A DNA stretch of 64,000 nucleotides from Mesostigma viride (Eukaryota; Streptophyta; Mesostigmatophyceae; Mesostigmatales; Mesostigmataceae). The stretch is from assembly GCA_009746045.1 (NCBI GenBank), contig RPFO01001996.1:1-64000 (forward strand). Reading direction: 5' to 3'. The position numbers and the translations under genes were made by a program. The notes under the pieces were generated by a model, which searched no databases, had not been told where the DNA came from, and saw only the letters and a list, made by a program, of their open reading frames with translations. Shown in pieces: positions 12,401 to 34,538 of the stretch. Numbering within the stretch: position 1 is the stretch's first letter; each line of letters starts with the position of its first letter.

Positions 12401-14598
12401 GATTCAGGCTCCCATGGTGTCATCATGGCTGGCCTACGTACATGGATGTCAGAAAAAAATGATGAGGATTCAGGCTCCCATGGTGTCATCATGGCTGGCC
12501 TACGTACATGGATGTCAAGAAAAAAATGATGAGGATTCAGGCTCCCATGGTGTCATCATGGCCCGTCTACGTGTTGTTGGCATGTATGAAATTAATGATG
12601 AGGATTCAGGCTCCCATGGTGTCATCATGGCTGGCCTACGTACATGGTTGGCATTTATGTAATTAATGATGAGGATTCAGGCTCCCATGGTGTCATCATG
12701 CCCGTGTATGTACATGGTTGGCATTTATGTAATTAATGATGAGGATTCAGGCTCCATGGTGTCATCATGGCCCGTCTACGTACATGGATGGCATTTATGT
12801 ATTTAATGATGAGGATTCAGGCTCCCATGGTGTCATTGATGATCATGGCATTTATGTAATTAATGATGAGGATTCAGGCTCCATTGGTGTCATCATGGCT
12901 GGCCTACGTATGTACATGGATGTCAAAGAAAAAAAATGATGAGGATTCAGGCTCCCATGGTGTCATCATGGCCCGTCTACGTACATGGATGTCAAGGAAT
13001 AGTAAATGATGAGGATTCAGGCTCCCATGGTGTCATCATGGCCCGTGTACGTACATGGATGGCATGTATGTAATTAATGATGAGGATTCAGGCTCCCATG
13101 GTGTCATCATGGCTGGCCTACGTACATGGATGTCAAAGAAAAAAAATGATGAGGATTCAGGCTCCCATGGTGTCATCATGGCTGGCCTACGTACATGGAT
13201 GTCAAAAATAAATGATGAGGATTCAGGCTCCCATGGTGTCATCATGGCTGTCTACGTACATGTTGGCATGTATGTAATTAATGATGAGGATTCAGGCTCC
13301 CATGGTGTCATCATGGCCTGTCTACGTACATGGATGGCATGTATGTATTTAATGATGAGGATTCAGGCTCCCATGGTGTCATCATGGCTGGCCTACGTAC
13401 ATGGATGTCTCAGAAAAAAAATGATGAGGATTCAGGCTCCCATGGTGTCATCATGGCTGGCCTACGTACATGGATGTCAAAGAAAAAAAAATGATGAGGA
13501 TTCAGGCTCCCGTGGTGTCATTATGGCCCGTCTACGTGTTGTTGGCATGTATGAAATGAATGATGAGGATTCAGGCTCCCATAGTGTCATCATGGCTGGC
13601 CTACGTACATGGTTGGCATTTATGTAATTAATGATGAGGATTCAGGCTCCCATGGTGTCATCATTGCCCGTGTATGTACATGGTTGGCATTTATGTAATT
13701 AATGATGAGGATTCAGGCTCCATTGGTGTCATCATGGCCCGTCTACGTACATGGACCGTGGCATTTATGTATTTAATGATGAGGATTCAGGCTCCCATGG
13801 GGTCATTGATGATCATGGCATTTATGTATGTAATTAATGATGAGGATTCAGGCTCCATTGGTGTCATCATGGCTGGCCTACGTATGTACATGGATGTCAA
13901 AGAAAAAAAAATGAAGAGGATTCAGGCTCCCATGGTGTCATCATGGCCCGTCTACGTACATGGATGTCAAGGAATAGTAAATGATGAGGATTCAGGCTCC
14001 CATGGTGTCAGATGTCATGGCCTGTCTACGTACATGGATGGCATGTATGTATTTAATGATGAGGATTCAGGCTCCCATGGTGTCATCATGGCTGGCCTAC
14101 GTACATGGATGTCTCAGAAAAAAAATGATGAGGATTCAGGCTCCCATGGTGTCATCATGGCTGGCCTACGTACATGGATGTCTCAGAAAAAAAATGATGA
14201 GGATTCAGGCTCCCATGGTGTCATCATGGCTGGCCTACGTACATGGATGTCAAAGAAAAAAAAATGATCAGGATTCAGGCTCCCGTGGTGTCATTATGGC
14301 CCGTCTACGTGTTGTTGGCATGTATGAAATTAATGATGAGGATTCAGGCTCCCACAGTGTCATCATGGCTGGCCTACGTACATGGTTGGCATTTATGTAA
14401 TTAATGATGAGGATTCAGGCTCCCATGGTGTCATCATTGCCCGTGTATGTACATGGTTGGCATTTATGTAATTAATGATGAGGATTCAGGCTCCATTGGT
14501 GTCATCATGGCCCGTCTACGTACATGGGTGGCATTTATGTATTTAATGATGAGGATTCAGGCTCCCATGGGGTCATCATGGCTTGTCTACGTACATGG
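6461..14598 (+). repeat. 70-71 bp satellite array, forward-oriented part, copy 1
   Basis: Roughly 115 monomers continue from the inversion point at about 6461 to the right arm. Linker types (ATTTATGTAATT, AAGGAATAGTA, AAAGAAAAAAA, CTCATAAAATA) recur in repeated orders, giving higher-order repeats: the stretch around 8870-9700 closely resembles 13300-14400. Between about 9.9 and 12.9 kb many monomers carry single-base losses, such as CTCCATGG for CTCCCATGG. No gene is supported. Confidence 0.95.
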
Positions 14599-14874
14599 AG
14601 TCATATTGATTCATGGAACAATGAGATACCATTCTTAATTGAAAATTGTTCTTGATACTTTCACATGCATGCCCGGAATCGTGAATTTGTGCGGGTTTCC
14701 ATGATGACAATCCTCATTGAATTCTTGAGCACACAATATTGAGCAATTTAGGGGCACTTCGGCAATGTTGACCATTTTCATTCATGATCAATAAAATTAA
14801 CATTTAATGCAATAAATACATATTCCACTCATTTTAATAAACCATGCAAAAACTTTACAAGCACGCTCAAGCTA

Positions 14875-15645
14875 GGGGTGGGCTGGCATGCACGCGTGGG
14901 TGTGGGGGTGGGCTGGCATGCATGCGTGGGTGTGGGGGTGGGCTGGCATGCACGTGTGGGTGTGGGGGTGGGCTGGCATGCATGCGTGGGTGTGGGGTTG
15001 GGCTAGCCTGCATGCGTGGGTGTGGGGGGGGCTGGCATGCATGCGTGGGTGTGTGTGGGGGGCTAGCATGCATGCGTAAGTGTGGGGGGGGCTGGCATGC
15101 ATGCGTGGGTGTGGGGGGGGCTGGCATGCATGCGTGGGTGTGTGTGGGGGGCTAGCATGCATGCGTAAGTGTGGGGGGGGCTGGCATGCATGCGTGGGTG
15201 TGTATGGGGGCTGGCATGCATGCGTGGGTGTGTGTGGGGGGCTAGCATGCATGCGTGGGTGTGTGGGGGGGCTGTCATGCATGCGTGGGTGTGTGTGGGG
15301 GCTGGCATCCATGCGTGGGTGTGTGGGGGGGCTAGCATGCATGCGTGGGTGTGGGGGTGGGCTAGCATGCATGCGTGGGTGTGGGGGGGGCGGTCATGCA
15401 TGCGTGGGTGTGTGGGGGGGCTGGCATGCATGCGTGGGTGTGTGGGGGGGCTAGCATGCATGCGTGGGTGTGGGGGTGGGCTAGCATGCATGCGTGGGTG
15501 TGAGTGTGGGCTAGCATGCATGCGTGGGTGTGGGGGGGGCTAGCATGCATGCGTGGGTGTGGGGGGGCCGGGGCCGGGGCTAGCATGCATGCGTGGGTGT
15601 GGGGGTGGGCTAGCATGCATGCGTGGGTGTGGGGGGGGGCTAGCA
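14875..15645. repeat. GCATGC minisatellite, inverted copy
   Basis: Reverse-complement counterpart of the 4371-5141 minisatellite, with the same unit order, including the distinctive GGCCGGGGCCGGGG unit at about 15566-15580. Equal length in both arms suggests recent duplication or gene conversion between arms. Confidence 0.94.
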
Positions 15646-15860
15646 CGCCCCACCCCTCCATCGGCACAGCCAGCCTTGTGAGTCTACCCTTAACAACAAG
15701 GCTGGTAGGACGACACGCCTGAGCAGCATATGTCATGCCTATCTCAGGCTAATAATGTGTGATTTTGTGCCAACAACCAAGTTGTTCCACCCAACAACAC
15801 ATTATAAACCCTCTTCCAAAATGCCCAACAAGCCGGACACGTGGAGGACCACACACGCAG

Positions 15861-15869
15861 TATATAAAG
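15861..15869 (+). promoter_or_regulatory. TATA-like motif TATATAAAG in right arm
   Basis: Counterpart of the minus-strand motif at 4142-4150, now reading rightwards. The possible transcript would run into the outer arm and the single-copy region after 16857. No intact gene follows. Confidence 0.3.
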
Positions 15870-16856
15870 AGAAAATAAGCTGACTTTTTATCCAGCCAAC
15901 CTGTGGCTAGCTGCTCTGGTTAGCATGACAAATGCTAACATTTACTCAGTGGGAAAGGTGAAGAGACCATTGGAACAGCCTACCTGACGCATGTGCCACC
16001 AAAGCATTGTGTCCCGCAAAATGCACACTGCCTCCTTTCTAACAAGCACGAGCCGCTCTCTTTAGGAGACAGGTGCCAGCTCGTCAGTGTCTGGGGAAAA
16101 TGATGCCGCTGCTTAGGAAGACCGCGTGAATTTCCTCGAACACAACTGTCTATAAAGCAAAAGAAATTTCAGAGAAGCATGGAAATAAAAGCATTACACC
16201 TTCCCGACAGGTTGCGGGCCACGCGCTGCAGAAAGCCAGCCACGTCACAGACGATTAACTAGCTAAAAGACACCCAGGAATCCAGCGATGCAGCGCCAGG
16301 ACCCGCAACTTTCTGGCTGCATCTGGCCGGAAAGAAGGCAAAAAGCTTACGCTCAACGAGGTAAGAAAGCAGGAAAACGCAAGCTTAAGACGTTTAACAC
16401 AAGAACGTACCATAACGGGCATTTATTCGTGCCCAGGCGCACAAGAAAGTCCACCCTTTCATGGAGTGGTTGGGCAGTACGCATCGCGCAGGGCTAATGT
16501 TATCTTACCGCAAAATGACGGGAAAGGTAAAGATAGCAGCGGGAATTTTTACGGCTTTAGAAACATCATTAAACTAGCTTTCCTTACGACCATCAAAACT
16601 GGCAACAATCGACAATCAACCCGGCAGGCATCCAATATACTTTATTCATCCCGACAGAAATTCAGGCCGGACCCCCCCTGCCGATGGCAAAGAAAAAAAG
16701 CCCGCGACATTATAGATCGCAACCATCCCGCCATAAATTAGAATCAGTAACTAATTTTCTCCAACAATCGAGCATTTCTGCTTTCCGCGTGCCAGATTTG
16801 TCACGTTTCGTCTAAAGGCAGTCGCCATGGCCCCTACCGCAAGGGGTGCGCGCACC

Positions 16857-17489
16857 ATGCCGACATAGCTTTTGGGCCTCAATTTGCACCGAAATTTGGT
16901 CCGTACCGTCCAGCTCAGTCGGATTATGTATGTGGATCGGCCGTGTTGGTTGCATACGCAGGTATATTAATTCTTGCATTCGCCCCGGACCTTCCCCAGG
17001 ACAGGTCAGGATATAACAATAATTCTTGCATTCGCCCCCGCCCTTTCCTATGGCCTGGTCAGGTTTGGGCGCGACGCCACTAGCGCGGCGCCCGCGACAG
17101 AGTGGCCAGGCTCGAGCACGTTTTCTGGATCCCAAGCACCGGATTGGACACTGTCCGAGGACTGGACAGGAATTGGCTGACCAATCGGATGCTTGCTCGT
17201 CGTCTCCAAAAACATATATAAAGAGCCAAATCGCGCGAACTACGCAAGGATCCTTTAAGCAGCGTTACTCTGCCGAAATGTCAACCTAGGCCGGTCAAGT
17301 GACGCCGAGGTGTTCACCGATAGTTCAGGTCAGCCACAGCGCGCCTTCGAATGTAGGCACGGTCGCATTTTTTTTTAGGAAATGTAGAATTGTTGTCGAC
17401 CAGCTACCAACGCCCGACCGGACCCATACAACGGAAACATCAAGGCGATGTGATGTAGGTGTGTCTGATATGTCATTAATACACAGAGC
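16857..17489. other. Single-copy region outside the inverted repeat, no intact gene
   Basis: This stretch is not part of the arm duplication. AATTCTTGCATTCGCCCC occurs twice (about 16970 and 17025) as a short direct repeat. GGACAGG/CCTGTCC-like elements are scattered through 16990-17170. Open frames at 16812-17135 (minus) and 17026-17289 (plus) show no recognisable domain. Confidence 0.5.
17171..17223 (+). promoter_or_regulatory. Promoter-like cluster: paired CCAAT boxes and TATATAAAG
   Basis: An inverted CCAAT box (ATTGG, about 17172) faces a direct CCAAT box (17181), followed 34 bp later by TATATAAAG at 17215-17223. The first ATG downstream (17278) opens a frame of only three codons, ATG TCA ACC TAG. 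Either the downstream gene was lost or replaced by the AT-rich sequence, or this drives a non-coding RNA. Confidence 0.35.
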
Positions 17490-17957: not shown

Positions 17958-18512
17958 GTTGCGCCGGCCGTCGTTATCCATGACGAACTGAATGGGTTTC
18001 GTGCAAATCAAGTTTTTTGTTTTGGTGTTCCAGTTGCGCCGGCCGGCGTTTCCAATGGTATCTTGCGCGCACTTGCAAAAGCTTGCACGCTTATCAACAT
18101 TTTGTGTTGGTAAACATTTTATCACCTCTGGGATTTCCGCCTTCACTACCTGAGTTGCTTCTTTGTGGTTTTCAAATGCAACCGAGTTACGCCGGCCGTC
18201 GTTACTCATGACAAATTGTAGGGGTTTTGTGCAAATCACTTTTGTATGGTTTATGTACATGCATCCAGTTGCGCCGGCCGGCGTTTCCAATGGTATCTTG
18301 CAGTTGCGCAATCAGGCCCCATTACCAAAAGTGTGTTTGTACATCTTTTTTACACCTGAAGGATTTCTGCCTGCATATCCTGAGTTGCTTCTTAATGGTT
18401 TTTAATTGCGCCCGAGTTACGCCGGCCGTCGTTATTAATGACAAACTGTATGTGTTTCATAAAATCACTTTTGTATGGTTTACATGTATCCAGTTGCGCC
18501 GGCCGGCGTTAT
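17958..18512 (+). repeat. Left subterminal array of the 20-bp motif (6 copies)
   Basis: Three tandem units of about 228 bp each hold two motifs. The first type is GTTRCGCCGGCCGTCGTTA at 17958, 18186 and 18416. The second is GTTGCGCCGGCCGGCGTT at 18033, 18268 and 18493. All read in the + direction, towards gene A. Sequence between motifs is much less conserved. The block is directly upstream of gene A and may serve as promoter, 5' intron or transposase-binding region. Confidence 0.85.
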
Positions 18513-18656
18513 TAATGACGCTTGTCGTTCTTGTTTGATGCCCATCGTTTTCGTCGTGTCTTTAATGGTGATTATTTATCATTACTCATCCTCAGGGCTT
18601 TCGGTGCCGCGGGATTAAGAGGCGAAAAAAATCAGCTGCCGTCTGACCAAAGTCTG

Positions 18657-21600
18657 ATGGCGCGATCGGGGCGGGGGGCCGTTTCCGACGGTTCGCGTCC
18701 CTTGTCCAATGACGACCGGGAGCCTGCACTTCGCGGTCTCTGGAGCGACAAGTACATCGAGAACAAGGGGTACAAAATTGCCAATGACATCTTTCCTATC
18801 ATGGCGGAACGCGTGAAAGCAAACAACCACAGGACGCCAGAGATGAGCGCGGAGGTTCTGTCTTGCGCAGCTTCAAGACTAAATGCCATGGTGGCGGAGA
18901 GCAACGGCATTAAGAAGAGGAAGAACTGTGACGGCGGGCTTCCTGAAAATTGGGCGGAATCTCTTCGGGATAACATCAAGAAGGCTTTTGGCGACTTGGG
19001 AACATCTGAGAAGGATCGTGGGCTTAGGTGGGCCTTGTGTGGACTTGTTACGAAGGCAATGGAGGGCGTCCCGGACAGGATTGTGGAGCGCGCGTTCGGG
19101 ATTGACAGGCGCTTTGTCGCAACTGTTCGGGGTCACAGGGATGGAATGGAAGAAGGGGAGGACGACCTTTTGATGAGTGCGCCAGAGAGGAGGAGGAGGA
19201 AAGACGAGCTTCCGACGGAAGTCATTGCCCTGATACAAGCGTGCTGGAGGGATGATAACTTGACGCGGGCGTCTCCGAACATGAAGGATGTTCATTGTGA
19301 ATGGACCAGAAAGGATTACAAACATACACTAGCGTTTTCGGAGGGTGCGCGCTACTATACTGTCTCCAAGTCGAAGATTTACGAAGTGTTCATTTCCCGC
19401 CATCCGGAGTTGAAGCCACCGCGGCGGATGGACAGTAGGGAGGGGGGGGGGGGGGAGGGAGAGGAGGGTGTGAGGGGGGGAAATCAGGTGATTTTGGAGA
19501 CGGAGGCAGGGATGTCAATGCTACGCACGAATCAGAAGAGCACAGTTCATGTGGGATACACTACTTTTTGCAAGCATATGCCCGCATGCGTCAAGGGGCG
19601 GTGGAAAATGCGGAACTTGTGCGCATGCCAGCACCACACTACCATGCAGTCCATGGTTGGGGGGTTGGCCAAATTTCGTGCAACTTTTCATGCCAGATGC
19701 GAGTGCGGACCTGAATGCCACGCGTGCGATCATGGTAGCCAGCTCGACGTGGGGTCGTCCGTGCCCACATGTTCCATTTTCAAAGCCACTCACACGACAG
19801 AGTGGGTGAACAAGTTTACTTGTGAGGTGGAGGGGATGAGGGAGGGGGGAGGTTCGAGGTCGTCTGTGGGGTCGTCGCGGCCGCAGGTTCAGCCTTTTCA
19901 GGGCGAACTTGAGGATCTGCCCATGCATGGGAGGGTGCTGGACGACGAGGAAGGGGTGCCCGATCATGACCTGGGCGAGGAGTTGGGGGTTTGCTCGATC
20001 CGGCGTAAGGCTTGTGTGTTGGGCACTTGCCTGGCTCCCAAGTGTGGAATTCGGAACTTCATGTTATGCGAACGGGAGGAGGCTTCCAACCACCTGATTT
20101 CATGGACCAGATACGAGATGCAGGATGTGCCGCCGGGTGCGGTTCTTGGGCCAGAGGTAATTTTTAGTGGAGTGGTTGCGCCCCAAGGCGTTTCTTTTGC
20201 AATGTTTCCTGAAGTTCTTGGGCCAGAGGTAATTTTTAGTGGAGTGGTTGCGCCCCAAGGCGTTTCTTTTTCAATTTTTCCTGAGGTCCTGTCTTTTTTC
20301 TTTCTACAGGTCATTGGTGGGTCGAAGTTGATGTCTTTTCTGTATGTGCACACTGCGCATATGCAGGACGACTGTGACGAGATCGCAAAGGCTGGTGGGC
20401 AGCGATTGACGCAAGTCGACGTCAAGTCCACACCAACGGAGCTAAAGGAGGCAATTGTGGACAAGTGGCCGGACTTCATCCAGCATTGCTTCAACGCGTG
20501 GTGGCAAGCGGACGCCTCCAAGGAATGTCTCTCAAGGATGCGGGTGGGGGACCTTGTATGCCACACAGATTACGCCGAGAACTACCAGTCTTACACCTAT
20601 CACAATCTCCAAGCACAGTATTGGCATCCAGTCACATTCGTCCTTATGCCCTGGATCGTGCGCTACTTGGATCCAGCGTCGGGAAAGGTCGTGAGAAGGG
20701 AGTTTCACTTCATCGGACAGGGCGGAATGAAAAGGGACGGGCGGGCCCTCCGTTTTGCTATCCTCAAAATCCTGGCGACACTACGGTCAGAAGGGGTAGA
20801 GGTGAAGCGCTTCATTGGGTGGTCGGACAATTGCTCCATGCAGTTCAAGTCAAGGAATGTGATCGCGGAAGTGGCCCGGCTGCTGACGGAGGATCCGCAC
20901 CTGGAGTCATTTGAGTGGAATTACTTTGGGGAGCAGCACGGAAAGGGGGAGGTGGATGGAGCTGGTGGGACTGTGAAGTGCATGTTGAGGAGGTGGCACA
21001 TCAGGGAAGAGAACCAGGACAAACAGACGGCCGCCCAGTTGGTGGAGAATCTGGCGTCGGGGGCGGTGGGCGGGACCACAACGACCAGGCGTAACTTCTT
21101 CGAGTTCCCCGAGGTAATTAAGTGTACAGTCCTCGTTCAGGGAATAGTTACGCCGGCCGTCGTTTCTAGGGCGTTCTTGGAGTCCTGGCGATCAGGAGTG
21201 CTTAATAAAACACAACTAGCTCGATGGTCTCGTAACTTCAACTTTCCCTTGTGCAAATCTTGTCTTCGACGCGCAGGTGCTTCCTTACAGCCCAGGGCGC
21301 GGCGAAATCAAAGGAGTGAAGAAGGCGCACTGGTGGCGCATGGACAAGTCGAATGTGACGCGCTTAATGCTGCGCCAGTATTCCTGCTATTGTGGCGGTG
21401 CGTGCGCCGAGGAAAGGTGGTGGGATTGTCGAAAGGAGTGGACCGACATGGACGGCTGGAATGTGGGAGGTGCTCGGATGAAGCTCCACAAACTGGGGGA
21501 GCCAGTGCAAAGGAACCCAAACGGACAAGGGGGGCACGCAGGGACGCGACTGAACAGACTACAGGCAGAGAGGACGATGATGGGAAGGAGACTGAAGCTG

Positions 21601-22008
21601 CGAGACATTTTTGCCGTCGAGTCCTACTCTGGTGATGAGTCCCACGATCCAGATCATCCATATTGGCTAGCGGAAGTCTTGCAGGAGCCTTATCAGGTGG
21701 CCGCTACTTTCGTGAGGCGAGTGGCCGACAGAAACGGCAAGGTCGATAGGGAGTTGTTCCGTAAGGGACAATGGGTGGTGGGGGTGCGCTACTGGGACAG
21801 ATTTCCGGGTATGGCGACGATGTTCAAAATGGACGCCGATGCGCAAGCTGAACAGCCAAACTTGGTCAATTGCTACCTGTGCATGGACGCGGGGTTCGAA
21901 CACACCATTGTTGTCAACCCAGCTAACAATCGCCAGGCCATCTTGACCATTCCGACAGACGTCGAGAAACGGCTCACGAACTTGGCCAAGAAGAGACCTG
22001 TTGAGTAG
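18657..22008 (+). CDS. Gene A: probable DDE-type transposase-like protein, 3 exons
   Basis: Exons 18657-20156, 20310-21113 and 21277-22008 join in phase 0 to give about 1011 residues. A Cys/His-rich region (residues about 305-372, with CACQHH and CECGPECHACDHG) looks zinc-binding. Candidate catalytic acids follow: D587 in HTDYAENYQ, D673 in WSDNCSMQFKSRN, then E708 or D716 in YFGEQHGKGEVDGAGG. The 34-residue gap between D673 and E708 fits a DD(34)E transposase core, and HGKG-x2-DG-x-GG recalls uncharacterised transposase-like proteins of animals and protists from memory. The C-terminal part has YSCYCGGAC and a WLAEV/WVVGVRYWDR module that may be a small beta-barrel. The frame is open further upstream to 18522; ATG 18657 was chosen because an acceptor-like TCCTCAG precedes it at 18595. 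Introns carry the 20-bp motif. Transposase function is inferred. Confidence 0.72.
20157..20309 (+). other. Gene A intron 1 with 72-bp internal duplication
   Basis: Donor GAG|GTAATT at 20157 and acceptor TTTCTACAG at 20309. The intron holds a 72-bp tandem duplication that includes the exon end CTTGGGCCAGAG, so a second identical donor lies at 20229. Each unit carries GTTGCGCCCCAAGGCGTTTC (20175, 20247). The intron is a multiple of three and has no stop, so retention or use of donor 2 would keep the frame and add 51 or 24 residues. Confidence 0.75.
21114..21276 (+). other. Gene A intron 2
   Basis: GAG|GTAATT donor at 21114 and GACGCGCAG acceptor ending at 21276; both flanking exons are in phase 0. 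The motif GTTACGCCGGCCGTCGTTTC sits at 21147-21166, 33 bases after the donor. Read through, the frame stays open, so the splice is inferred from the sites and the motif rather than from a stop. Confidence 0.7.
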
Positions 22009-22552
22009 GCCAGCTCGCCCGGGCTTGGTTGGACGAGGTGGACAGCCTTGAGAGCACGTGCTTCGTTGTGAGCACTTGCCTTTCAGCCGTGATTTGCAAA
22101 CGAGTTCCTTGTCCTGAATTGTAAAGCTCGATTCATGCTCTTTTAAGGAAGTGTATAATATTATCCAGATCATGTATATATTTAGATCTAGACCTGAGTT
22201 CAAATAACATTTCTTAGAGGGCTGAGATGCGCGAGGTCCAGCATACATGTATATATCCATGGAGACATGTTACAAACTCAAATGTTTCATTGTACGTACC
22301 ACTAGCTCGTCGACGGGGGTATCCCATGTAATGTATGATTTATGAATTAATTAATCGCTTAATTGTACAATTTAAATGGATCATGAACTTGTCAAGTGGC
22401 CTAATTTGGTTTATTTGGTTCATCATTTATTGATGTCAATCATTCTTAATTGAATCTCGAGCAATAGCAATCATGAAGCACATCCTAATCATGTGATTCG
22501 CATAATGAGAATAGGCAACAAGTGCTAAGTACTTTGAGGAATGCGGGGTTGG
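22009..22552. other. Convergent 3' intergenic region between genes A and B
   Basis: About 540 bp of AT-rich DNA separates the stop codons of gene A (+) and gene B (-). It includes AATTAATTAATCG and several TATA/AAT-rich runs that could hold polyadenylation sites for both genes. I see no gene in it. Confidence 0.55.
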
Positions 22553-23181
22553 TCAGGTTATTATAGAGCTAGAGCTACAAACGGCACATATATTGCAAAC
22601 TTTGCGCTCCAGGCATGGAATTTCAAAAGTACCAAAATTGGAGCAGTAGATGTTGGGGACGCCCAACAGGCCGCGAGCCTGCTTCCTGCTGGCGATCCCC
22701 ATCCTCATCACAGATACGCCCGCCGGCGTTTCCAGTAACAGGCCGCGAGCCTCCTTCCTGCTGGCGATCCCCCTCCTCATCACAGATACGCCCGCCGGCG
22801 TTTCCAGTAACAGGCCGCGAGCCTCCCTCCCGCTGGCGATCCCCCTCCTCATCACAGATACGCCCGCCGGCGTTTCCAACGACAGGCCTCGAGTCTCCTT
22901 CACCAGCACGCTGGCGCTTACCTCCCCCCCTTTTGTCTTCATCCCCCCCCATTGTCTCCTCCCGCGAGCCTCCATCATCCCGACTGCGCTTTTTCCCTCC
23001 CCTTCCATCTCCTCCCCCGTCCCTCTCCCCCTCCCCCCTCCTCCCTCCTCCCCATCCCCATCCCCTTTCTCCCCCTCCGCCTGCCCCCCACCCACCCCGG
23101 GCGGGTGCCCCTCAGCAATATCCTCCTCCCCCTCTTCCTCCTCCCCCTCTTCCTCCTCGTAAACCTCTTCCTTCTCCGAGC

Positions 23182-23243
<62 letters not shown>

Positions 23244-26200
23244 GAATGATGATCCCCGTCGTCTTCGTCGTCCACGACCACGGCAAAGTCCATGTCGACG
23301 TCTTGCCACCCATCTTCAAGAAGCCGATATTTGATAAGTCGGACCAGGCGCTTCCACCGGCGGATATGGGCGGGTAACCCGAACACCAGCAGAACTCTGG
23401 AGGGTCCCTTCAACAGGGCCTTGGTGATCTGGTCAACCACATCCCACGCGGCATACCTCAAACGGGAGGAGGGTAAGGGTATCTGGCTGTCGACCGGAAT
23501 ACAGTCTTGATCCCACTCGCGCAGGTTCCTCCACTTCTCGTTGCTGTCAGCTGTCAGGTCCAGCACAGCAAACGCCTGGTCCTTCAGCTTCCCAGGAAGG
23601 TCTTCAGACCCCGTGTACAACTCGTCCACCACCTTCGTCACCACCAGATCCTTTCTTTTTTCGTTTTCCTTCCATGTCATTGTCCTGTATGCGATCCAGT
23701 CGGGTCCCATCTTCACCCCGTCCCAATAGGTGAAGGCTTCCAGCCTGTCCCACCACCCCCTCTTGGCCTTGGCAGTCCCCTCCTCCTTAGCCGCCGCCTG
23801 CACCTCCTCCTCCGCCGCCGCCTCCTGCTGTGGCACACCCAGCAGATGTTTGGTCTTCACCCCCAAATCGTCATACAAATGACGGGGGTGGGAAGCGAGC
23901 AGCCCTCTCGGGAACTTCCAGTCCTTCTGGTCGACCACTTTCCTTTTAGCCGGCGGAAGGTCCCTCAGCGTGAGAATGATCGCCCTCGTGGCCGTGACGA
24001 TCACCCGCCAAAAGTCTCTGGTCAGGCGGCAGTCGGCGATGAACTTGTCGAGGTCCGTGGCGACGGTGCCCTTCAGCTTCACGCCAAACACGTGCTCCCT
24101 CACCAATACGGGGTCGAAAGTCCCGTTTAGTTGTTTGCAAGCGGCCATCAGCTCGGGGTTCTCCAGGAACTTGATGTGGGCGAATTGCTTTGCCGCCTCT
24201 ATCAAATTCTTGGCGACTTCCATTATTTTTATCAGGTTGCTGGGAGGGGCCTCACAGGACATGATCGGCGCTTGGATCAGGCTGTCGAAGTACTGGAAAC
24301 TCGCAAGTTCCCGATGCGCGGTGAAAATGGACAGTTCGTGCGCCTTGTCTTTAGGGCGCGTGTCAAGGAAGTCTTGCCGAGCCGCGATATCCTGTGCGAT
24401 CGCCGGCTTGCCGTCGACAGCGGGCTTCAAAGGGTCCTCACACCAGAACAGCCAGCGCTGCATGAAGTTCTTCTGGTCCGGCCCCCACTTGTCCGTCTCT
24501 TCAGCCCCTCCTGCCTTGTCGCCTGCGCCGTCCCCTTCGGCCTTGGCTTGCTCTCCTTTCTGCCAAAAGGGCTTCACAATCGCCCAGATCTTGCCGTACA
24601 GAGGAGTTGGGAGAGACACGCCCTTCCCTCTCTTGACGGGTCCATATGCCTGGTAGGCCCGGTGCACATCCCCCAGCGCTGAGCCCCACGTTGCCTTGGC
24701 TTGGGCTGTGTCCTCGGCGTTCATGGCGTTCCCGAGCTGCCTGACAACTTCGATCATCTTGCCGACTTGTTCGGTAACCTGCATCCCCGTAGGGCAACAA
24801 CGCGCAGAGACACATCGACAGTCCTCCCAAATAAGCACAACTCAACTGAGAACAAGAATACGACTGACAGAAACGCCGGCGGTCGCATCTTGACCAAAAT
24901 ATGGCATGCTAAGGTGGAACATGAAAACCCCTTATAGAAACGCCGGCGGTCGCATCTTGACCGAACTAATGGCATACTGAAATTAACACAAGAAAACCAC
25001 TTATAGAAACGCCGGCGGTCGCAACCTGGCTTACCTTCTGTTCACGGATCTGCCACCAGGTCGGCAGGATGGTCTCACCCTTGAGCATCTGCACGTCCAC
25101 CCCCCCGAAATTCGTCCAATCAGTTGCCCACTCCTCCAGCTTCGCCGCGGCCACGGTCTTCGTGACCTCCTGCTCCTTCCCTCCCCGCGCAACGACCCTG
25201 AGCTTTTCCGCCTTCATGAAACCATTCAGCATTGCCTGGTACCACACAGATCTTTGGTCCACCGTCATATTGTCGGTGACCAGTTCGAATTTCACCGATT
25301 TGATGAGTGTGGTAAAGTGGTTCCCGTCCAGCACGAGAAAGCCGCAAATGGCTGGCGGCAACGGTGGCTTCTTCTCGAGTGGAGCCATCTCCCAGGCGGA
25401 CTTGCACAAACTGTCCAAAAGCGCGGCCTTTCTCACGTCCACGGGCTTAAGTGAGTCCAGAATATCGGCCGGTCCTGTCAGAACCGCGGTGGAAGCAGCT
25501 TCGGCCATTCCCTTGGCCGAGCTCGTTCGCAGGTAGATATCAATCTCTTTGTCAGTCATTGCGCGAGCGTAGCCAGCCTTCATTGTCCGTGCCCCCCCAT
25601 CTCCCCGAAGAGTTGCGCGAGCTGACGCTGGGTGCCTTCCTTTTTCATCCAGTCATGAAAACTGTTGGGGCACCGGTCAGCCAAAAACTGGAACGAGTAC
25701 CGCCACACAGGAATCACCAGCTTGTCGTGGCCGTAGTCGGACTCCGAGTTTGCAAAAATGGTGGCGTTCTGCTCGGCTCTAGACAGATGCAAGTCTCGTG
25801 CGAGGAGCTTCTGAGGCCCCACGAACAGGTTCCTTGTCCACACCCGATTTCGATGCACCAAGGCTTTGGACATCTCATCGAGGTCCCGAGGCTGAACGGC
25901 AAGCTGCTTCCGCAACCGTTTGCCCTTCGCGATCTCATCGTTCACATCCAGGATGTCATCATCATCCTGCGACACCGGGGACTTCTCCCATTTCTCAAGC
26001 AGAGACACGGGAGCATCCGCAACCTCCACCTCCTTTCCTTTCCCCTTTCCCTTCAGCGCCTTCCCCTTGTAGGTCGCAAGTGCTTCGGAGAGTCCCTTCT
26101 GGTGTTCGTCGACGGCAGCAGTCCACGTACTATCTATTTTCATGTTCTCGCGGCGCGCGTGCTGGTCGAGGCTGATTGAGTACAGGATGGCCGCGTGGGT

Positions 26201-28355
26201 CGCCCTCTCGGCCTGCACGTACTGCGTTGATGCGAAAAAATCAGGAAAGCATAACCAAAAGGAATAAAGTAAATGCCGATTGAGAAACGCCGGCCGTCGC
26301 AACCTACATGAAACCTGAACCTCAACATCAAAGCCCCCCTCACAACAGAGGTATACTTACCTCGTTCCCCTTAACAATGATATGAAAAAATCAGGAAAGC
26401 ATAACCGAAAGGAATAAAGTAAATGTCACACTTGAGAAACGCCGGCCGTCGCAACCTAGATGAAACCTAAACCTCAAGATCAGAGCCCCCCTCACAACAG
26501 AGGTACACTTGGCTCATTTCCCTCAACGATGCGAAATCAGGAAAGGAAGTAAGTGTTAGTCAAAAGGAAGTAAGTGTCACACTTGAGAAACGCCGGCCGT
26601 CGCAACCTACATGAAACCTGGACCTCAAGAACAAAGCCCCCCTCACAACAGAGGTAGACTTACCTCATTCCCCTCAACCGCTGCTGCTTCAGCCGCTTTC
26701 TTCGACCCCTTCGCGATCTTCGGAGACTTGTCCCGGCGGGCATCGTGTTCCTTCAACATCTTGATCAGAGTCTTGGCGTCCGCCATCGTCACCGTCTTCA
26801 GTTTACACTTCCTCTCCTTCCCTTTGCCCTCGAACAGGTTCTCCTCCATCCACTTTATCAAGGCCTTGGCGCTCGGGATCTCCTCAGGCTGTGTGGCGCC
26901 ATCGGGCGCGCACGCATTCTTCACGATCAACTCAGCGACTTGATGGAGAGTCATCATCTGGTTCCGTACCTCAGGTGGGGCTGTTTCCGTTCTCACCTCG
27001 GCCACAACCCACTTTGCCAACTTCTTCAGTTGATAAGCATCCGCTTGCTCCTTAAAGCGTGTCATTTTCGCAGTATCGCCGTCGCTTCCACCCGCGCCCT
27101 CTGACACAGGCTCACCGACAGCGATAGCCCCCTCTCCCTGGAGATTTGCCCCACCCTGACGACCGGCTTCCTGCAAGAACATTATCAACGGAAGATTTTT
27201 AATGTAAGAAAAGTGTAGAGAAACGCCGGCCGTCGTAACTCTGTCAATTGAGGACGAACCTAAACTTTCAATTTGTAAGTCAACGGTAACTTACCCTTCC
27301 CCCCTCTGCAGTGGAACCACCGTAAGATCCACTTCCCCTCCTGTCACCGCCCTCTTGCTGCTCGAACGGACTTCCCTGTAAAAATAGCAAACGCGATTGT
27401 CCATTCACAAGAAAAAAATTACTACAAAAATAAACAAGGATATACGCACGCAAACCTTTTCAATACAAGTAAACCGGAGAGGAATCTGACGCACTCATGT
27501 ACCTGGGTGCTTCCCGCCATTGAGCGGGCTTCTCTTGCACCAACATCCTCTTGCCGGCCCTGCGAACATTTCAACGGAAAGTAAAAATCCGCTTAGTTGT
27601 CGGAAATGACATGTCTGGCGAATATTGCAAAAAAATGCGTATTGTATTTCACGACATCAATTTAATGGGCGGAGACTTACGAAGATCGGCCCGCCACCTT
27701 CCAAATTGCCCAGCGTCATATCGAAAACATCGAGGACTTCCCCTCCATCGACCCCCTTCCCCCTTCCCCTCTGCCGCGGCGGGGGCATATCGCCCGTCGC
27801 GACCGGCTTGGAAGTCGCGGGGGGATCCCTTGCGGTTGAGGGCACTGCGGCCGACTCGTGCACACTCTCCCCCCTCTTTTGGGCTACTGCGGCAGGCGCG
27901 GCATGGGAGGGCGCGGCGGCTACTGTCTCTGGCGCATTCTGAGCCAACCGACGCAACCTTAGCTCCTGCTGGAGCAGGGTTTCGAAACGAGGCATGAATG
28001 TGCGCTTGGAGGTATAAGGCACCTTGGCGACTTCAGGTTTGTCATTAAGGATGTCTTGGTACAGCGCGAATTGCTGTTCACGAGTGCCATTCGCGAGTCG
28101 CTCAAACCGCTCAATCTGAATCCGCTTAACCGGATCGTCCACCATCTCAAGACCACCGTGGTACTCATCCTTCCCAGTGACCGCGGCAAAGCTGACACCA
28201 GATTCCACCATTGGGGGCGGCGTGCCCTCCCTTGCACGCTTGTGAGGAGGCTGTTGTGGGGAGGCGCCTTGGGCCTGAACTGGTTGCCCTTCTGACCCTT
28301 CCCCCCTAGGGGGAGAGTCGCCGACCACCTGCGATGTAGGGCCGCCCTTTTCCAT
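22553..28355 (-). CDS. Gene B: large unidentified protein, 6 exons, one probable frameshift
   Basis: Exons from the 5' end: 28355-27681, 27559-27503 (19 codons), 27375-27295 (27 codons), 27170-26664, 26221-25035 and 24778-22553. Every junction is phase 0 with GT-AG sites. The product is about 1577 residues if a one-base discrepancy is allowed at a run of seven C at 25592-25598; as read, the frame stops shortly after and resumes at 25583 in another frame. The N-terminus is Pro/Gln-rich. Exon 4 is helical with a Lys-rich end. Exon 6 is hydrophilic with Trp-rich segments, then a poly-Asp/Glu tract (residue about 1350 on) and 24-residue repeats near the C-terminus. I recognise no family. The start ATG follows directly after an acceptor-like GTTGCAG, so a 5' untranslated exon may exist. 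It may be a partner protein of the element that carries gene A. Confidence 0.7.
22655..22880. repeat. 72-bp tandem repeat with plus-oriented motif inside gene B 3' end
   Basis: Three full units plus partial ends carry GATACGCCCGCCGGCGTTTC at 22713, 22785 and 22857. The 72-bp period equals 24 codons, so the minus-strand frame stays open and would encode ETPAGVSVMRRGIAS-type repeats. The motif is antisense to gene B here but matches the orientation of gene A. Either gene B has captured motif repeats as a coding tail, or its true end is earlier. Confidence 0.75.
23180..23241 (-). repeat. GAT/CAT trinucleotide run encoding poly-Asp
   Basis: About 20 CAT units on the + strand read as a run of Asp codons in gene B. 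A Glu-rich stretch (about 23100-23170, CTC-rich on the + strand) follows. Acidic tracts like this are common in nuclear or chromatin proteins, but nothing more specific can be said. Confidence 0.85.
24779..25034 (-). other. Gene B intron 5 with three tandem motif units
   Basis: Donor AAG|GTAAGC at 25034 and acceptor GGGATGCAG ending at 24779. Three tandem units of 67-69 bp each contain GAAACGCCGGCGGTCGCAWC on the + strand (24870, 24937, 25006). The first motif begins only 9 bases after the donor. The tandem growth resembles that in gene A intron 1 and gene B intron 4. Confidence 0.75.
26222..26663 (-). other. Gene B intron 4 with three tandem 151-bp units
   Basis: Donor GAG|GTAAGT at 26663, acceptor CAACGCAG ending at 26222. 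The intron is three units of about 151 bp, each with GAAACGCCGGCCGTCGCAAC (26284, 26436, 26587) and, at the unit edges, relics of the exon end plus donor (CTTACCTCGTTCCCC at 26355). The duplication therefore included the exon boundary and leaves a decoy donor inside the intron. Confidence 0.78.
27220..27239 (-). other. 20-bp motif in gene B intron 3
   Basis: GAAACGCCGGCCGTCGTAAC on the + strand, in the intron 27171-27294, 55 bases after the donor. The two other upstream gene B introns (27376-27502 and 27560-27680) have no copy, so the motif is not required for splicing in general. Confidence 0.8.
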
Positions 28356-28577
28356 CTGCAACACAAAACAAAAAAATTGGAAAAAACATACGAGTCAGCA
28401 GGAAGATGCGCCCCACGTCGCAACTCAATACAAAAAATGCATCATTATGTCAAGGTACAAACAACGTTATAATTCAGAATGAACAGAGATTCATAACAAG
28501 AGAACGACGCACTAAAAGATGCGACCGCCGTCGCAACTTTCGTCAATTCACTCTCTATACAAACAACTCTATGTCCC

Positions 28578-29312
28578 TCATAAAGAATCAATTGGCAAGG
28601 AAATGCAAAAAAATTCCGTTACCACCTCCGTCGACCCATAAGTGGTTCGCGAATGGGAAATCGCTGCTGATTTTCGGTCGAGCCCTTCACGGTATTTTCG
28701 AAATCTCGAGGCAAGGTTGCGCGGAAGAGGGCCCCCCTCAATCATGCGTGCGATCGGACTGGCCATGGAAACGGATACCTGGTTCCTGGACTGCCTTGCA
28801 CGGTCAACCATCTTGAAACTTCCCCGGAGAAGGAAATCAGACGTCAGACGGTTGAATATGCGAACGTCAAGATTTGACCAACCCATCATCCATTCCACCA
28901 CCTTCTCCGCGGCATCATGGAAGACCTGCCTCTCATCCGCCACTCCTCGAGACCCAAACACACAATCGGCCGTGTTATCGTCGTGCCTCTTAAGGCGAAT
29001 GTTCACGTCCTCTTTGTCATCATCCATTTCCGACAGCCGAATTACAGCCCTTTTGGCTCCGTCCACTCCATCCTCAAGAAGGACGTCCATCTGCGCCCCT
29101 CCCACACAATTGTTGTCAACGTATTGTTGCAAATGACGGGAAATCATGTCCTTTCCAAAAGCTACGATGTGTTCCCCACACAGACCCATGTCGGTAATTG
29201 ACAGCTTTTTACATTTCCTATCCCGGCACTTCTTTTCGGGATCCTTCTCAAAAATCCGGAAAACAGCGTCCTGATATGGACGTCCCCTTATGTCGACCGT
29301 CAGACTGGACAT
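28578..29312 (-). CDS. Gene C: unidentified 244-aa protein with Cys/His cluster
   Basis: A single open frame from ATG 29312 to the stop at 28578. Near residue 29 lies C-x4-C-KK-x9-C-x2-H (CRDRKCKKLSITDMGLCGEH), probably a small metal-binding module. The rest is mixed alpha/beta with acidic patches. Gene D has a comparable C-x4-C-KK-x9-C-x3-H start, so C and D may be paralogues. The start ATG is immediately preceded by TTTCGCAG, an acceptor-like sequence; a GGCCGGTATGTT block just upstream is shared with gene D. Two variant copies of the 20-bp motif follow the stop (28518 and 28405). No family is recognised. Confidence 0.65.
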   Translation of the reverse strand: MSSLTVDIRGRPYQDAVFRIFEKDPEKKCRDRKCKKLSITDMGLCGEHIVAFGKDMISRHLQQYVDNNCVGGAQMDVLLEDGVDGAKRAVIRLSEMDDDKEDVNIRLKRHDDNTADCVFGSRGVADERQVFHDAAEKVVEWMMGWSNLDVRIFNRLTSDFLLRGSFKMVDRARQSRNQVSVSMASPIARMIEGGPLPRNLASRFRKYREGLDRKSAAISHSRTTYGSTEVVTEFFCISLPIDSL

Positions 29313-29592
29313 CTGCGAAACCAGAACATACCGGCCGCGAGTAGTTTATATTATTAAAAAAAACTGGCATTTATTAAGTCATCTTCATCTATTTATGCGA
29401 GCTAAAATTTGAAGAAAATGCAACAAAGAAACGCCCTGGGGCGCAACTTCCTCAACAACCACTTTCTACGTACAAACGAATGGCAATCACATCGACTACG
29501 ATTGTCACTACATACGAATGTCCAGACAATATAATGTGTATGTAGAGGGGGGGCATTCAAGACCAGAGAAACGCCGGCGGGCGCAACTCATA

Positions 29593-30459
29593 TCAATATA
29601 GACTGTCCCGCGACTCGTTCCACTCTCTGCAGGTTTTGCAACAACCGATCGAGCGAACTCTCGGAACCTCTTTCGCCGCCATTTCATCGACACGAGCGAA
29701 CATCTCTTCTTTGGCGGCCACCAACTTTGCCTCCTTGTTGCCGGTGTCAGGATAGATTTCGGACCTCCTCGTCTTCATCGGGGCCACTCTCTCCAAATAC
29801 TCTGCACACAGAGAATCCTGCTCCTCCTCCACAATCGCCTTCACGCCGGATACAATCGCTTTGGCTTTTGTTTCCACGCGAAAATCGAACTCTCGTTGAG
29901 TTATCAGCGGAATGTCGGCGAGTGCAAAACACATACGCCGATAAAGTTCGCTTACATCCGTGTCACGCGAGTCGGCAAAAGGTGTCGTCATCAAAAAGCA
30001 TCTCAAGCTACTCCAACCATTTTCTTGGGCGCCGGCAACGTAGCCTCCCTTTGCCAAGTCCGCACCTGTCGCGGAGTCTTTGACTATCCAATCTTCAAGG
30101 AAGTACTCGTCTCCCCTGGTGAAATCAAAATTTACACCCACGACCTCTCCGACAGTCATGTCCAGGCGAAGTCGCAGGGCCCCCCCCGCCAATCCAGGTC
30201 CGAGGGCGCCCGCCATTCCAAGTCCGCGACTGAGGGCATTTTCGATGTGACGAGAATGTTCTTCGTGCTTTCGGCAATACAAGTCAAATCCGAGAGCGGT
30301 TTTCTTGCAAGTGGACACATCACACTTGCGCGGCGCCCCTATTGAGCGAGCAACACTCTGAATGACAGTGGCAACCGCTTGGTGTTGTTGAAGTCGTTGC
30401 CAATCCTCCATCAGGAGGTGACTAGACGAATCGGACGAATCTTCCGTCGAACCGGACAT
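29593..30459 (-). CDS. Gene D: unidentified 288-aa protein with Cys/His cluster
   Basis: The frame runs from ATG 30459 (codon 4 of a slightly longer frame) to the TGA at 29593. After a Ser/Asp-rich start and a helical stretch it has CDVSTCKKTALGFDLYCRKH, a C-x4-C-x9-C-x3-H metal-binding candidate. A Gly-rich hinge and a longer globular part follow, containing MCFALADIPLITQREFDFRV, which loosely resembles MYAQLADMNFCIQEGFF in gene E. A second Cys pair, CCKTC, lies near the C-terminus. TTGTCGCAG directly precedes the chosen ATG. The 20-bp motif occurs 9 bases after the stop (29568) and again at 29428. Function unknown. Confidence 0.66.
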   Translation of the reverse strand: MSGSTEDSSDSSSHLLMEDWQRLQQHQAVATVIQSVARSIGAPRKCDVSTCKKTALGFDLYCRKHEEHSRHIENALSRGLGMAGALGPGLAGGALRLRLDMTVGEVVGVNFDFTRGDEYFLEDWIVKDSATGADLAKGGYVAGAQENGWSSLRCFLMTTPFADSRDTDVSELYRRMCFALADIPLITQREFDFRVETKAKAIVSGVKAIVEEEQDSLCAEYLERVAPMKTRRSEIYPDTGNKEAKLVAAKEEMFARVDEMAAKEVPRVRSIGCCKTCREWNESRDSLY

Positions 30460-30623
30460 CTGCGACAAGTTACGATAACATACCGGCCCCGGAAAATAAA
30501 ATTCAAAAAACGTTTTGAAATTTTTTTATTGTACTTGTTTATTAATACGAAGGTTTAAATTTGGCGCAAAGAAACGCCCCAAGGCGCAACTTGTCGAACA
30601 GCAATATGGCGATAAAACATTAT

Positions 30624-30824
30624 CTATTCAATGTGCGATTGATGTGCTGAAACCTTCCAGACTTTGACACTGTCCGGTATCACCGGACTCGGACGAGGAG
30701 TCGAGTCGGAAGCGAGCCAGTAATCCTCGACTATTTTTTTGATGTACAATGGAAGACTCCTTCCATTATGTCGAAGTGTGTCGGTCCTTTGCCTTTTGGC
30801 CAAACTCTCCTTAACCTCCACCAT
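30624..30824 (-). CDS. Gene F: short basic protein, about 66 aa
   Basis: ATG 30824 lies three bases after an acceptor-like CCTACGCGCAG, and the frame ends at 30624. The product begins MVEVKESLAKRQR, followed by a helix-prone IKKIVEDYWLASD and a Pro/Ser tail. It is too short to classify. It could be a terminal exon of gene E's transcript or an independent small gene in the same co-directional series. One motif copy lies downstream at 30571. Confidence 0.4.
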   Translation of the reverse strand: MVEVKESLAKRQRTDTLRHNGRSLPLYIKKIVEDYWLASDSTPRPSPVIPDSVKVWKVSAHQSHIE

Positions 30825-30925
30825 TTCCTGCGCGTAGGAGGAAAATGATACGTTATAAACATTAAACATTAAACATTAAATATAACATCATATAAACAAG
30901 TTATTACTCTACATTTCAAGTTTTT

Positions 30926-31681
30926 CTAAGAGGCAGAGCCGTCGTGGAAGTTGAAGGAGAAGTCGACATCAGACCCCATAGTTTTATCCAGTATCGTCGT
31001 CACGTTAACCCCCCACTTCACCCCTGCCAGCACCTCCCTCGCTTGCCTCAGACGTTCGCATCTATCCTTATGCCTACTCCAGTCCGCACGCTGGCACTCC
31101 TCACTGCAATATCTGGCATCCCTACATCCTCTACACCACTTGATATGAGGTCCTGTTTCGCACCCACACCCCTCCTTGGAGCACTTTCGCGTACTACGCA
31201 TGCGATCCCCATCCCTCACGATCGGGTCAGAGAGCAAGAAAAAGTTCATGTTGAGGGGTACTGCCCCTACACATGCATCAGCCCTCACGCGCAGAGAATG
31301 CGTAACATTCGGGTAAAATGCGCGCCCGTAGGTGCACCCAAGCTGAGCCCCTTCCTCTTCCCCCAACTCTATCTTTGGCCCCTTTGTAATGAACGACACC
31401 AAAAGGCGGAACTCCGTCCTTGGGTCTATGGGCACTCTTAGATCCATCTGTGGTCTGAAAAAACCCTCTTGAATACAGAAGTTCATATCAGCTAGCTGGG
31501 CGTACATAATTCTCTCCATTTGGCTGAACGAATCAAACGCCAATAAAACGGCCAAGTGGCGGCCTGTCCTCTCCTGCGCGACTCGAACTTCCTCGAATAT
31601 GACACGCGACAGAAAGCGAACTTGTTTGAAAACGTTTTGAAGGACGCTTCCGTAGACTTCATTCACGATCTCGGACTCCAT
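30926..31681 (-). CDS. Gene E: MYND-type zinc finger protein, about 251 aa
   Basis: ATG 31681 was chosen because an acceptor-like GAAAAAG precedes it; the frame itself opens at 31705. Residues about 167-208 match the MYND pattern: CGC, then CRGC, YCSEEC, H and C in the order C-x2-C-x4-YC-x3-C-x7-H-x3-C. MYND fingers bind peptides or act as protein-protein contacts, often in transcription regulators. The 160-residue N-terminal part is globular and of unknown family, with a loose likeness to gene D. It lies in the middle of the minus-strand series between G and F, with gaps of 68 and about 100 bp. Confidence 0.75.
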   Translation of the reverse strand: MESEIVNEVYGSVLQNVFKQVRFLSRVIFEEVRVAQERTGRHLAVLLAFDSFSQMERIMYAQLADMNFCIQEGFFRPQMDLRVPIDPRTEFRLLVSFITKGPKIELGEEEGAQLGCTYGRAFYPNVTHSLRVRADACVGAVPLNMNFFLLSDPIVRDGDRMRSTRKCSKEGCGCETGPHIKWCRGCRDARYCSEECQRADWSRHKDRCERLRQAREVLAGVKWGVNVTTILDKTMGSDVDFSFNFHDGSAS

Positions 31682-31749
31682 CTTTTTCAGGGAAAAAACG
31701 AACAAAAAAATTCATAAACATTAATTTATTATTTTATAATAACAAGTTA

Positions 31750-31989
31750 CTATTCCTCGGAATAGTTTTTTTTTATCCATTCCACAAACGCGTTTGTCAC
31801 AAACACCTTCCATGCTTTCTCAAGAACTTGTCCCCCTGATGTTTTTGAGTATTCAAACTCGTCATCCGAAGAAACCAACTCCGGCACATCCTCCGAGAGG
31901 GTCTCTAAATTGTCATCGGCTTTCCTTTTGCGCTTGTGGTTTCCGAAGCATTTTTTTTGTTCTTCTTCTGACATTTGTTCTGCAACCAT
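31750..31989 (-). CDS. Gene G: small acidic/basic protein, about 79 aa
   Basis: The frame from ATG 31989 to 31750 starts MVAEQMSEEEQKKC, then HKRKRK (nuclear-localisation-like), an acidic middle (LSEDVPELVSSDDEFEY) and a helical end (AWKVFVTNAFVEWIKKNY). The true start could be the second Met, since GGTTGCAG before AACAAATG is acceptor-like. It is the first gene after the right motif array. I recognise no family. Confidence 0.5.
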   Translation of the reverse strand: MVAEQMSEEEQKKCFGNHKRKRKADDNLETLSEDVPELVSSDDEFEYSKTSGGQVLEKAWKVFVTNAFVEWIKKNYSEE

Positions 31990-32100
31990 GGAGTCATTTC
32001 GAGGGGGGTGTGGTTTAACGGGTGCAGATTTAAAGTAATTTGTTTTAGGTGAACGATGGTAAAAACTTCATTAGATATTTTAAACGAACGAGAAGCAACA

Positions 32101-32503
32101 GAAACGACGGCGGGCGTAACTATCATGGGAAACTTTGATATCACAAGATCACAATGGACACGAACGCGCTGCAACTTTCACGACATATTCTTCGACATCG
32201 AAAATAAAAAAGAAACGACGGCGGGCGTAACTATCATGAAACATTGATCTTACAAGAAGCTGACGGGGATGCAACTTTCACGACAAACACTTCGACATCG
32301 AAGATGCAAAAGAAACGACGGCGGGCGTAACTATCATGGAAAGATTGAGCTTACAAGATGACAAGTTAACTGACGGGGGTGCATCTTTCCCGAGATATAT
32401 TTCGACATCGAAAAGGCAAAAGAAACGACGGCGGGCGTAACTAGCACAACCAATGTTGGTCATGTGCTCTTCCAGTAAGACAAGAAACGACGGCGGGCGT
32501 AAC
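32101..32503 (-). repeat. Right subterminal array of the 20-bp motif (5 copies)
   Basis: Copies of GAAACGACGGCGGGCGTAAC (+ strand) at 32101, 32212, 32312, 32422 and 32484. A second, degenerate TGCAACTTTCACGACA-type element lies between several of them. In gene G's direction each reads GTTACGCCCGCCGTCGTTTC. The array mirrors the one at 17958-18512, with opposite orientation, at the other edge of the gene island. Confidence 0.88.
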
Positions 32504-32551: not shown

Positions 32552-33236
<685 letters not shown>

Positions 33237-33795
33237 GTAAGCGTAAGCGTAACCTAAGCGTAAGCAAGGGTAAGCGTAAGCGTAACCGTAGGAGAGGGAG
33301 GGCGTAAGCGTAAGCGTAAGCGTAAGCGTAAGCGTAAGCGTAAGCGTAAGCGTAAGCGTAAGCGTAAGCGTAAGCGTAAGCGTAAGCGTAAGCGTAAGCG
33401 TAAGCGTAAGCGTAAGCGTAAGCGTAAGCGTAAGCGTAAGCGTAAGCGTAAGCGTAAGCGTAAGCGTAAGCGTAAGCGTAAGCGTAAGCGTAAGCGTAAG
33501 CGTAAGCGTAAGCGTAAGCGTAAGCGTAAGCGTAAGCGTAAGCGTAAGCGTAAGCGTAAGCGTAAGCGTAAGCGTAAGCGTAAGCGTAAGCGTAAGCGTA
33601 AGCGTAAGCGTAAGCGTAAGCGTAAGCGTAAGCGTAAGCGTAAGCGTAAGCGTAAGCGTAAGCGTAAGCGTAAGCGTAAGCGTAAGCGTAAGCGTAAGCG
33701 TAAGCGTAAGCGTAAGCGTAAGCGTAAGCGTAAGCGTAACCGTAAGCGTAAGCGTAACCGTAAGCGTAACCGTAAGCGTAAGCGTAACCGTAAGA
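33237..33795. repeat. TAAGCG hexanucleotide array, copy 2
   Basis: The same hexamer as at 1-376, with a mixed first part (TAACCTAAGCG, a purine interruption near 33290) and about 70 clean units. The TAACCG variants at its right end reproduce the pattern at 320-376, which anchors the alignment of the two repeat blocks at an offset of about 33.4 kb. Confidence 0.95.

Positions 33796-34538
<743 letters not shown>

Follow-up and report, generated by a model that had tools for sequence, protein, structure and literature searches.

Different 20-bp near-palindromes in the non-coding parts of related mobile elements of Mesostigma viride

Results

A repeated near-palindrome in two gene modules

The window analysed here comprises the first 64,000 nucleotides of contig RPFO01001996.1 of the streptophyte Mesostigma viride (assembly GCA_009746045.1). 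It contains two modules of a mobile element, one with gene A, which probably encodes a DDE-type transposase, and one with genes B to F, and both carry copies of a short near-palindrome, motif 1 (Table 1). The whole window was scanned for GTTRCG-N8-CGTTTC with up to two mismatches. This gave 38 matches against a mean of 4.32 and a maximum of 12 in 100 shuffles, and 33 of them fell within 17958-32503. Four matches (19104, -; 22065, +; 22269, +; 26004, -, one mismatch) were left out because they lack the inner GKCG. The accepted set is 29 copies, the same number that a first-pass annotation of this DNA had counted. Their consensus is R-GWTRCGMC-N4-GKCGTTTC-Y, with G1, T3, C5, G6, C8, G13, C15, G16 and the flanking purine and pyrimidine invariant in 29/29. 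The motif described in that annotation is therefore real, but the site is longer than the 20 bp given, as inner bases and the flanking R and Y are fixed too. Motif 1 is an imperfect palindrome of 20-22 bp, in which a 4-bp centre separates two 8-bp half-sites. Positions 7 and 14 of the half-sites vary independently of each other, and only a few bases distinguish one strand of the motif from the other. Read in this way, all 12 accepted copies up to 22876 lie on the + strand and all 17 from 24870 on the - strand, exactly the split reported previously.

According to an approximate exon map, coding sequence makes up 71% of the interval, yet 26 of the 29 sites and 10 of the 11 independent places lie outside it; motif 1 occupies most of the longer non-coding stretches of the gene modules. 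Recognition-like sites had been suggested for introns and spacers and they are indeed present there. The claim of non-coding placement holds for these 26 sites and fails for three copies (starting at 22713, 22785 and 22857) that lie antisense within the reading frame of gene B, in a 72-bp unit spanning 22665-22901. The motif is in sense orientation at 10/11 places (two-sided P = 0.012). It has also been multiplied locally, in tandem units of ~230, 72, 72, 67 and 151 bp, plus the right array. Thus the observation as first made is confirmed in part.

Table 1. Genes, motif 1 copies and element end between 17958 and 32503 of the window.
Feature	Position	Strand	Details
Six-copy motif array upstream of gene A	17958..18512	+	~230-bp tandem unit, two copies per unit
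Gene A	18657..22009	+	1011 amino acids; three exons, 18657-20156, 20310-21113, 21277-22009
Two motif copies, gene A intron 1	20175..20266	+	72-bp tandem duplication including donor site
One motif copy, gene A intron 2	21147..21166	+	last accepted copy before A end
A-side terminus of element	22635..22664	+	ends ...TTGGGGACGCCC
Gene B of second element copy	22665..28355	-	several exons; first ATG at 28355; interrupted at 22665 by A element
Three motif copies in gene B open reading frame	22713..22876	+	GATACG variant; 72-bp repeat, antisense to B
Three motif copies, gene B intron	24870..25025	-	67-bp unit
Three motif copies, gene B intron	26284..26606	-	151-bp unit
One motif copy, gene B intron	27220..27239	-	motif scan
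Two degenerate motif copies between genes C and B	28405..28537	-	two mismatches each
Gene C	28578..29312	-	orphan protein; zinc-knuckle-like CxxxC...CxxH stretch (our own reading)
Two motif copies between genes D and C	29428..29587	-	motif scan
Gene D	29593..30459	-	orphan protein; similar zinc-knuckle-like stretch
One motif copy between genes E and D	30571..30590	-	motif scan
Gene E	30926..31681	-	MYND zinc finger protein; 146 genome matches scored
Gene F	31750..31989	-	small orphan protein
Five-copy motif array upstream of genes F and E	32101..32503	-	motif scan

Related families carry different motifs

Related families bear different 8-4-8 near-palindromes in corresponding introns and upstream regions. 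P0002 is 40% identical to gene A over the searched region, and its first large exon was scored in 45 copies. Family 2, to which this transposase belongs, has GGTCGCGC-TGCA-GCGCGACC-type sites in 3/3 introns; the introns and upstream region of P0002-type loci carry GGTCGCGCTGCAGCGCGACC, GGTATCTCTGCAGAGTGACC (twice) and weaker forms. Sites were counted at five of 30 P0002-type loci, each of which had seven motif-2-like sites, against 0.1-0.25 in shuffles, and none lay in the covered exons of these loci. They have no common strand (two +, two -, three equal). The intron donors of gene A (following GPE and FPE) stand at the same aligned positions as those of the later two P0002 introns (following AGE and FPE). 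As the donors align and the motifs differ, matching introns hold different tags.

A third family is represented by gene E copies of 88-90% identity, at three of which the upstream region was read. Two contain three ATGCCAAC-GGCC-GTTGGACY-type sites each and no motif 1; the third is disrupted by other sequence and contains neither motif 1 nor motif 3. One further variant motif 3 site lies beyond the gene E stop in a ~90% copy. The 16-bp core of motif 3, TGCCAACGGCCGTTGG, has 932 genome matches, against 0 for the reversed control. Among the matches listed (100 of the 932), all sites of a multi-site cluster share one strand in 28/28 cases, and the E-type array and the other paired array are divergent in 3/3 contigs where they lie close; in 8/10 contigs with an E-type array there is an opposite-strand site 7-14 kb further on.

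The three motifs were compared over 30 gene E loci, the 30 fetched P0002-type loci and the two intact upstream regions of ~90% gene E copies. Motif 1 was found in 30, 0 and 0 of these, motif 2 in 0, 30 and 0, and motif 3 in 0, 0 and 2, respectively.

Accessory genes may differ between families as well, because in the L079 sequence from a ~90% copy the gene following E is unlike D and resembles an open reading frame with an F-box-like stretch (our own reading). Gene F had no significant match to the small upstream open reading frame of family 3.

Genome-wide distribution and age

Exact matches to motif 1 number 4496 in the 439.9 Mb genome, whereas the reversed control has 104. The matches listed include 96 motif places on contig C1, and 94 of these fall in A- or B-F-like groups, as judged by motif spelling and spacing rather than by reading each gene. 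The genome search proposed in the first-pass annotation has thus found the motif concentrated in relatives of the A and B-F modules, and not spread evenly in random orientation.

Gene E had 146 scored matches in the genome, of which 119 were full length and 100% identical. An alignment of 84,077 bases from 30 loci, chosen as the best gene E matches, showed 28 substitutions, which were spread over 15 positions; one was a CpG transition and none fell in a motif. Judging from this identity and these few substitutions, the element is young. In M. viride, 5-methylcytosine is found mainly at CG, and CMT/DMT orthologues are reported, according to PMC6947507. The scarcity of CpG transitions (1/28) agrees with unmethylated copies, and with youth as well.

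The change of strand is a junction between element copies

The end of the A module, ...GGGGACGCCC (window 22664), is common to the window and three A copies elsewhere, and the sequence beyond it differs in all four. The 30-bp A end has 272 exact copies genome-wide. A B-F copy elsewhere continues past the point matching 22665 without A sequence, in an uninterrupted gene B. The A end in the window thus lies inside gene B of another element copy. The island is therefore not one element, and the flip in motif orientation, previously placed at the centre of a whole gene island, marks a junction between copies. The element is mobile, as had been proposed (146 gene E matches, 272 A ends), but the idea of one self-contained island is not supported.

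The layout of the modules was examined for 54 of the 146 gene E matches (contigs up to C1391; the window itself is outside the 54, and two of them, C943 and C1135, are ~90% copies) against A ends among the matches listed (100 of 272). Such an A end lay within 100 kb of 17/54 gene E copies, and in 16 of these 17 pairs the A and B-F modules were back to back (divergent), 13.6-60 kb apart. For the remaining 37/54, many of which are on short contigs, none of the listed A ends lay within 100 kb. The arrangement in the window is not the usual divergent one. Since linked modules are normally divergent, the element probably has two arms, one carrying B-F and the other A, with a long spacer between them. 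When the modules are divergent, most copies of motif 1 face outward, along transcription, and the motif arrays are on the inner, spacer side of the modules. The A-end sequence occurs once per A module on contig C1 (8 A modules). A search of the window allowing up to three mismatches gave no inverted partner for it, and no terminal inverted repeats were found at the island edges.

Several other repeats were seen in the window. Adjoining the gene F side is 2 kb of (GAGGGA)n and (GTAAGC)n (32568-34538). Many small contigs begin or stop ~1-2 kb from gene E, and this clustering of contig ends suggests assembly breaks in that repeat. A very large inverted repeat pairs 3154-6470 with 13543-16860 (inverted, 95%), with 71-bp satellite arrays between, and 45691-48118 is a further inverted copy of 14432-16860 (98%).

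Genes of the two modules

The probable identity of gene A as a DDE-type transposase follows from its conserved blocks (HxDxAENY, SDNCSxQFKS, GEQHGKGEVDG) and from copy number; an alignment shows acidic blocks common to gene A and P0002. Residues 400-900 of gene A match, at 96% identity, a protein labelled Mesvir1 in EukProt, whose cluster has nine members. Homologue searches with gene A (E up to 0.001) and with an A/P0002 profile, each scoring ~8000 candidates only, returned two matches apiece, all labelled Mesvir1. A sequence search of the PDB gave no match, DUF7869 matched P0002 weakly and below the cut-off (E=0.12), and an AlphaFold model of P0002 with P0001 was too poor to use (mean predicted local distance difference test score, pLDDT, 32.6).

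A Pfam scan of ten element stretches found nothing above the cut-off in A-D and F and a MYND domain in E only; gene B was scanned as separate stretches with part of it outside the scan, and distant relatives could be missed. A search for homologues of gene D (E up to 0.01) found two, both labelled Mesvir1. Genes C and D were considered as paralogues and this was rejected, the alignment covering the zinc-knuckle-like stretch only (E 0.71). Two public gene models, P0003 and P0004, match gene D. P0003 joins the end of D to sequence resembling the start of gene B, and P0004 joins it to another protein; these joins may be annotation errors or real chimaeric transcripts.

Discussion

A proposed family-specific tag read by an element protein

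Motif 1 is an imperfect palindrome, lies mainly in non-coding sequence, has multiplied where it stands and gives way to other motifs in related families; a dimeric binder encoded by the element would fit this combination. We consider it an even call whether the motif is the family-specific binding site of such a protein, one that keeps the element active in the manner of VANC; both binding and anti-silencing are what we infer by analogy. Sequence-specific anti-silencing is described for the VANDAL elements of Arabidopsis (PMC5735166, PMC10398659). According to these reports, the motifs bound by VANC are short and are found in introns, between genes and in terminal non-coding sequence (PMC5735166), its target motifs build up as tandem repeats, and the targets of VANC6 have a different motif from those of VANC21 (PMC5735166, PMC10398659). 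The M. viride elements are likewise multigene, apparently DNA transposons, with motifs concentrated in introns, intergenic and other non-coding parts, amplified in tandem repeats and differing between related families.

If the analogy holds, the element's own protein would bind motif sites in cis and in trans, and would more likely be an orphan accessory product (B-F) than transposase A. Once bound, it would counter host silencing by keeping the promoters and gene bodies of the element open, and would activate the element's genes, as VANC does for VANDAL. Motif and binder would change together, so that the effect would be confined to the protein's own family.

There are differences from the Mutator-like VANDAL elements. 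The motif here is near-palindromic and 20-22 bp long, whereas that of VANDAL has 8-9 bases. The M. viride elements are very large and have repeat-bearing spacers, and anti-silencing in them is argued by analogy. The transposase has no Pfam match, and neither a VANC relative nor a Mutator-type transposase was detected above the Pfam cut-off among A-D and F (B in part). Because only gene E matches Pfam above the cut-off, nothing ties the element to VANC by descent.

Several further observations weigh against this interpretation. The right array is unchanged, with the same five copies, at 24 of 30 genome loci read, so that no present change of the array is visible. One motif array is inside the reading frame of gene B, and motif 1 is carried by 3/5 gene B introns and missing from 2/5. 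The sense bias of family 1 is not required by VANC-type binding. Youth alone could explain the missing CpG decay, because the loci were picked as the best gene E matches. Lastly, motifs 2 and 3 were defined on the same loci where they were counted, and the motif 2 count is at the level of loci, without a genome-wide control.

Alternative explanations

The motif might serve only as an activator site, with an element or host factor acting on promoter arrays and intronic enhancers and no role in silencing. The positions of the arrays are consistent with this, the six-copy array lying 145-699 bp upstream of the gene A ATG and the five-copy array just upstream of F; moreover, D, C and B each have one or two sites upstream, and the motif is mostly in sense. 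However, the copies deep in introns and in the reading frame of B exceed what promoters need, as do the local tandem units in several kinds of place and the replacement of the motif from family to family. We regard this explanation as unlikely.

The sense bias of family 1 is the best support for a different idea, raised in the first-pass annotation, that the motif works as RNA: a sense hairpin in introns and untranslated regions would be recognised by an RNA-binding protein of the element and would control splicing, export or small RNAs. The zinc-knuckle-like stretches of C and D are in keeping with this, and positions 1-20, 4-17, 5-16, 6-15 and 8-13 can pair in 29/29 sites (4-17 as G-U, A-U or G-C). 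However, 5-16, 6-15 and 8-13 are invariant and, as these pairs never vary, they give no evidence of covariation. Pairing is broken at 7-14 in 17/29 sites, at 3-18 in 27/29 and at 2-19 in 20/29. Moreover, three copies are antisense, the sites of family 2 have no common strand, and family 3 has the opposite-strand sites described above. The broken 7-14 pair, the antisense copies and the strandless family 2 sites make an RNA hairpin less likely, and although the five pairs are possible we rate it as quite improbable.

Least credible of all is a role in excision, with the motif bound by the transposase in the way of CACTA/Spm subterminal repeats: short repeats are many and their orientation differs between the two gene modules, but on the A side, where alone this could be judged, the distance to the end is 1498 bp for the nearest accepted copy and 4152 bp for the upstream array, and in the divergent layout the arrays are on the inner, spacer side.

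In CACTA elements such as Spm/En, TnpA binds subterminal motifs, whose arrays lie within a few hundred bases of the ends, and the termini are CACTA-type sequences with terminal inverted repeats. The putative binder here would resemble the Spm/En case in that an element-encoded protein has many short sites, which in Spm/En serve both regulation and transposition. In M. viride, by contrast, the sites occupy introns and regions upstream of genes, at a distance from the A end, whose sequence is GGGCGTCCCC rather than CACTA. The absence of any accepted copy from the last 1498 bp on the A side tells against subterminal transposase sites. The likeness to CACTA/Spm subterminal repeats that had been drawn from arrays at both edges is therefore not upheld: on the A side the edge of the element is free of arrays, and the A end lacks an inverted partner in the window and occurs once per A module on contig C1. 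Overall, the earlier interpretation is supported in its mobile element with recognition-like sites and not in its edges and centre.

Significance

The proposed family-specific tag read by an element protein could be part of something broader. It is possible, though we hold this tentatively and as rather less than probable, that an unrelated group of transposons in this early-branching streptophyte alga has independently evolved VANC-like self-recognition, with at least three families each labelling its introns and upstream regions by means of a private 20-bp palindrome that has a co-evolving dimeric reader. Motif and reader would then switch together while a neighbouring gene stays ~90% identical. 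A literature search found no paper on these elements by title or abstract opening.

If true, this would be a second, apparently unrelated case of sequence-specific anti-silencing with the logic of VANDAL, and would point to the marking of non-coding DNA in a family-specific way as a general means by which large DNA transposons escape silencing. The elements may also be a source of new sequence-specific DNA-binding proteins. Taken together, the three pairs of motif and family form a ready test system, with different tags in matching introns and more than 100 near-identical copies in a host with 5-methylcytosine.

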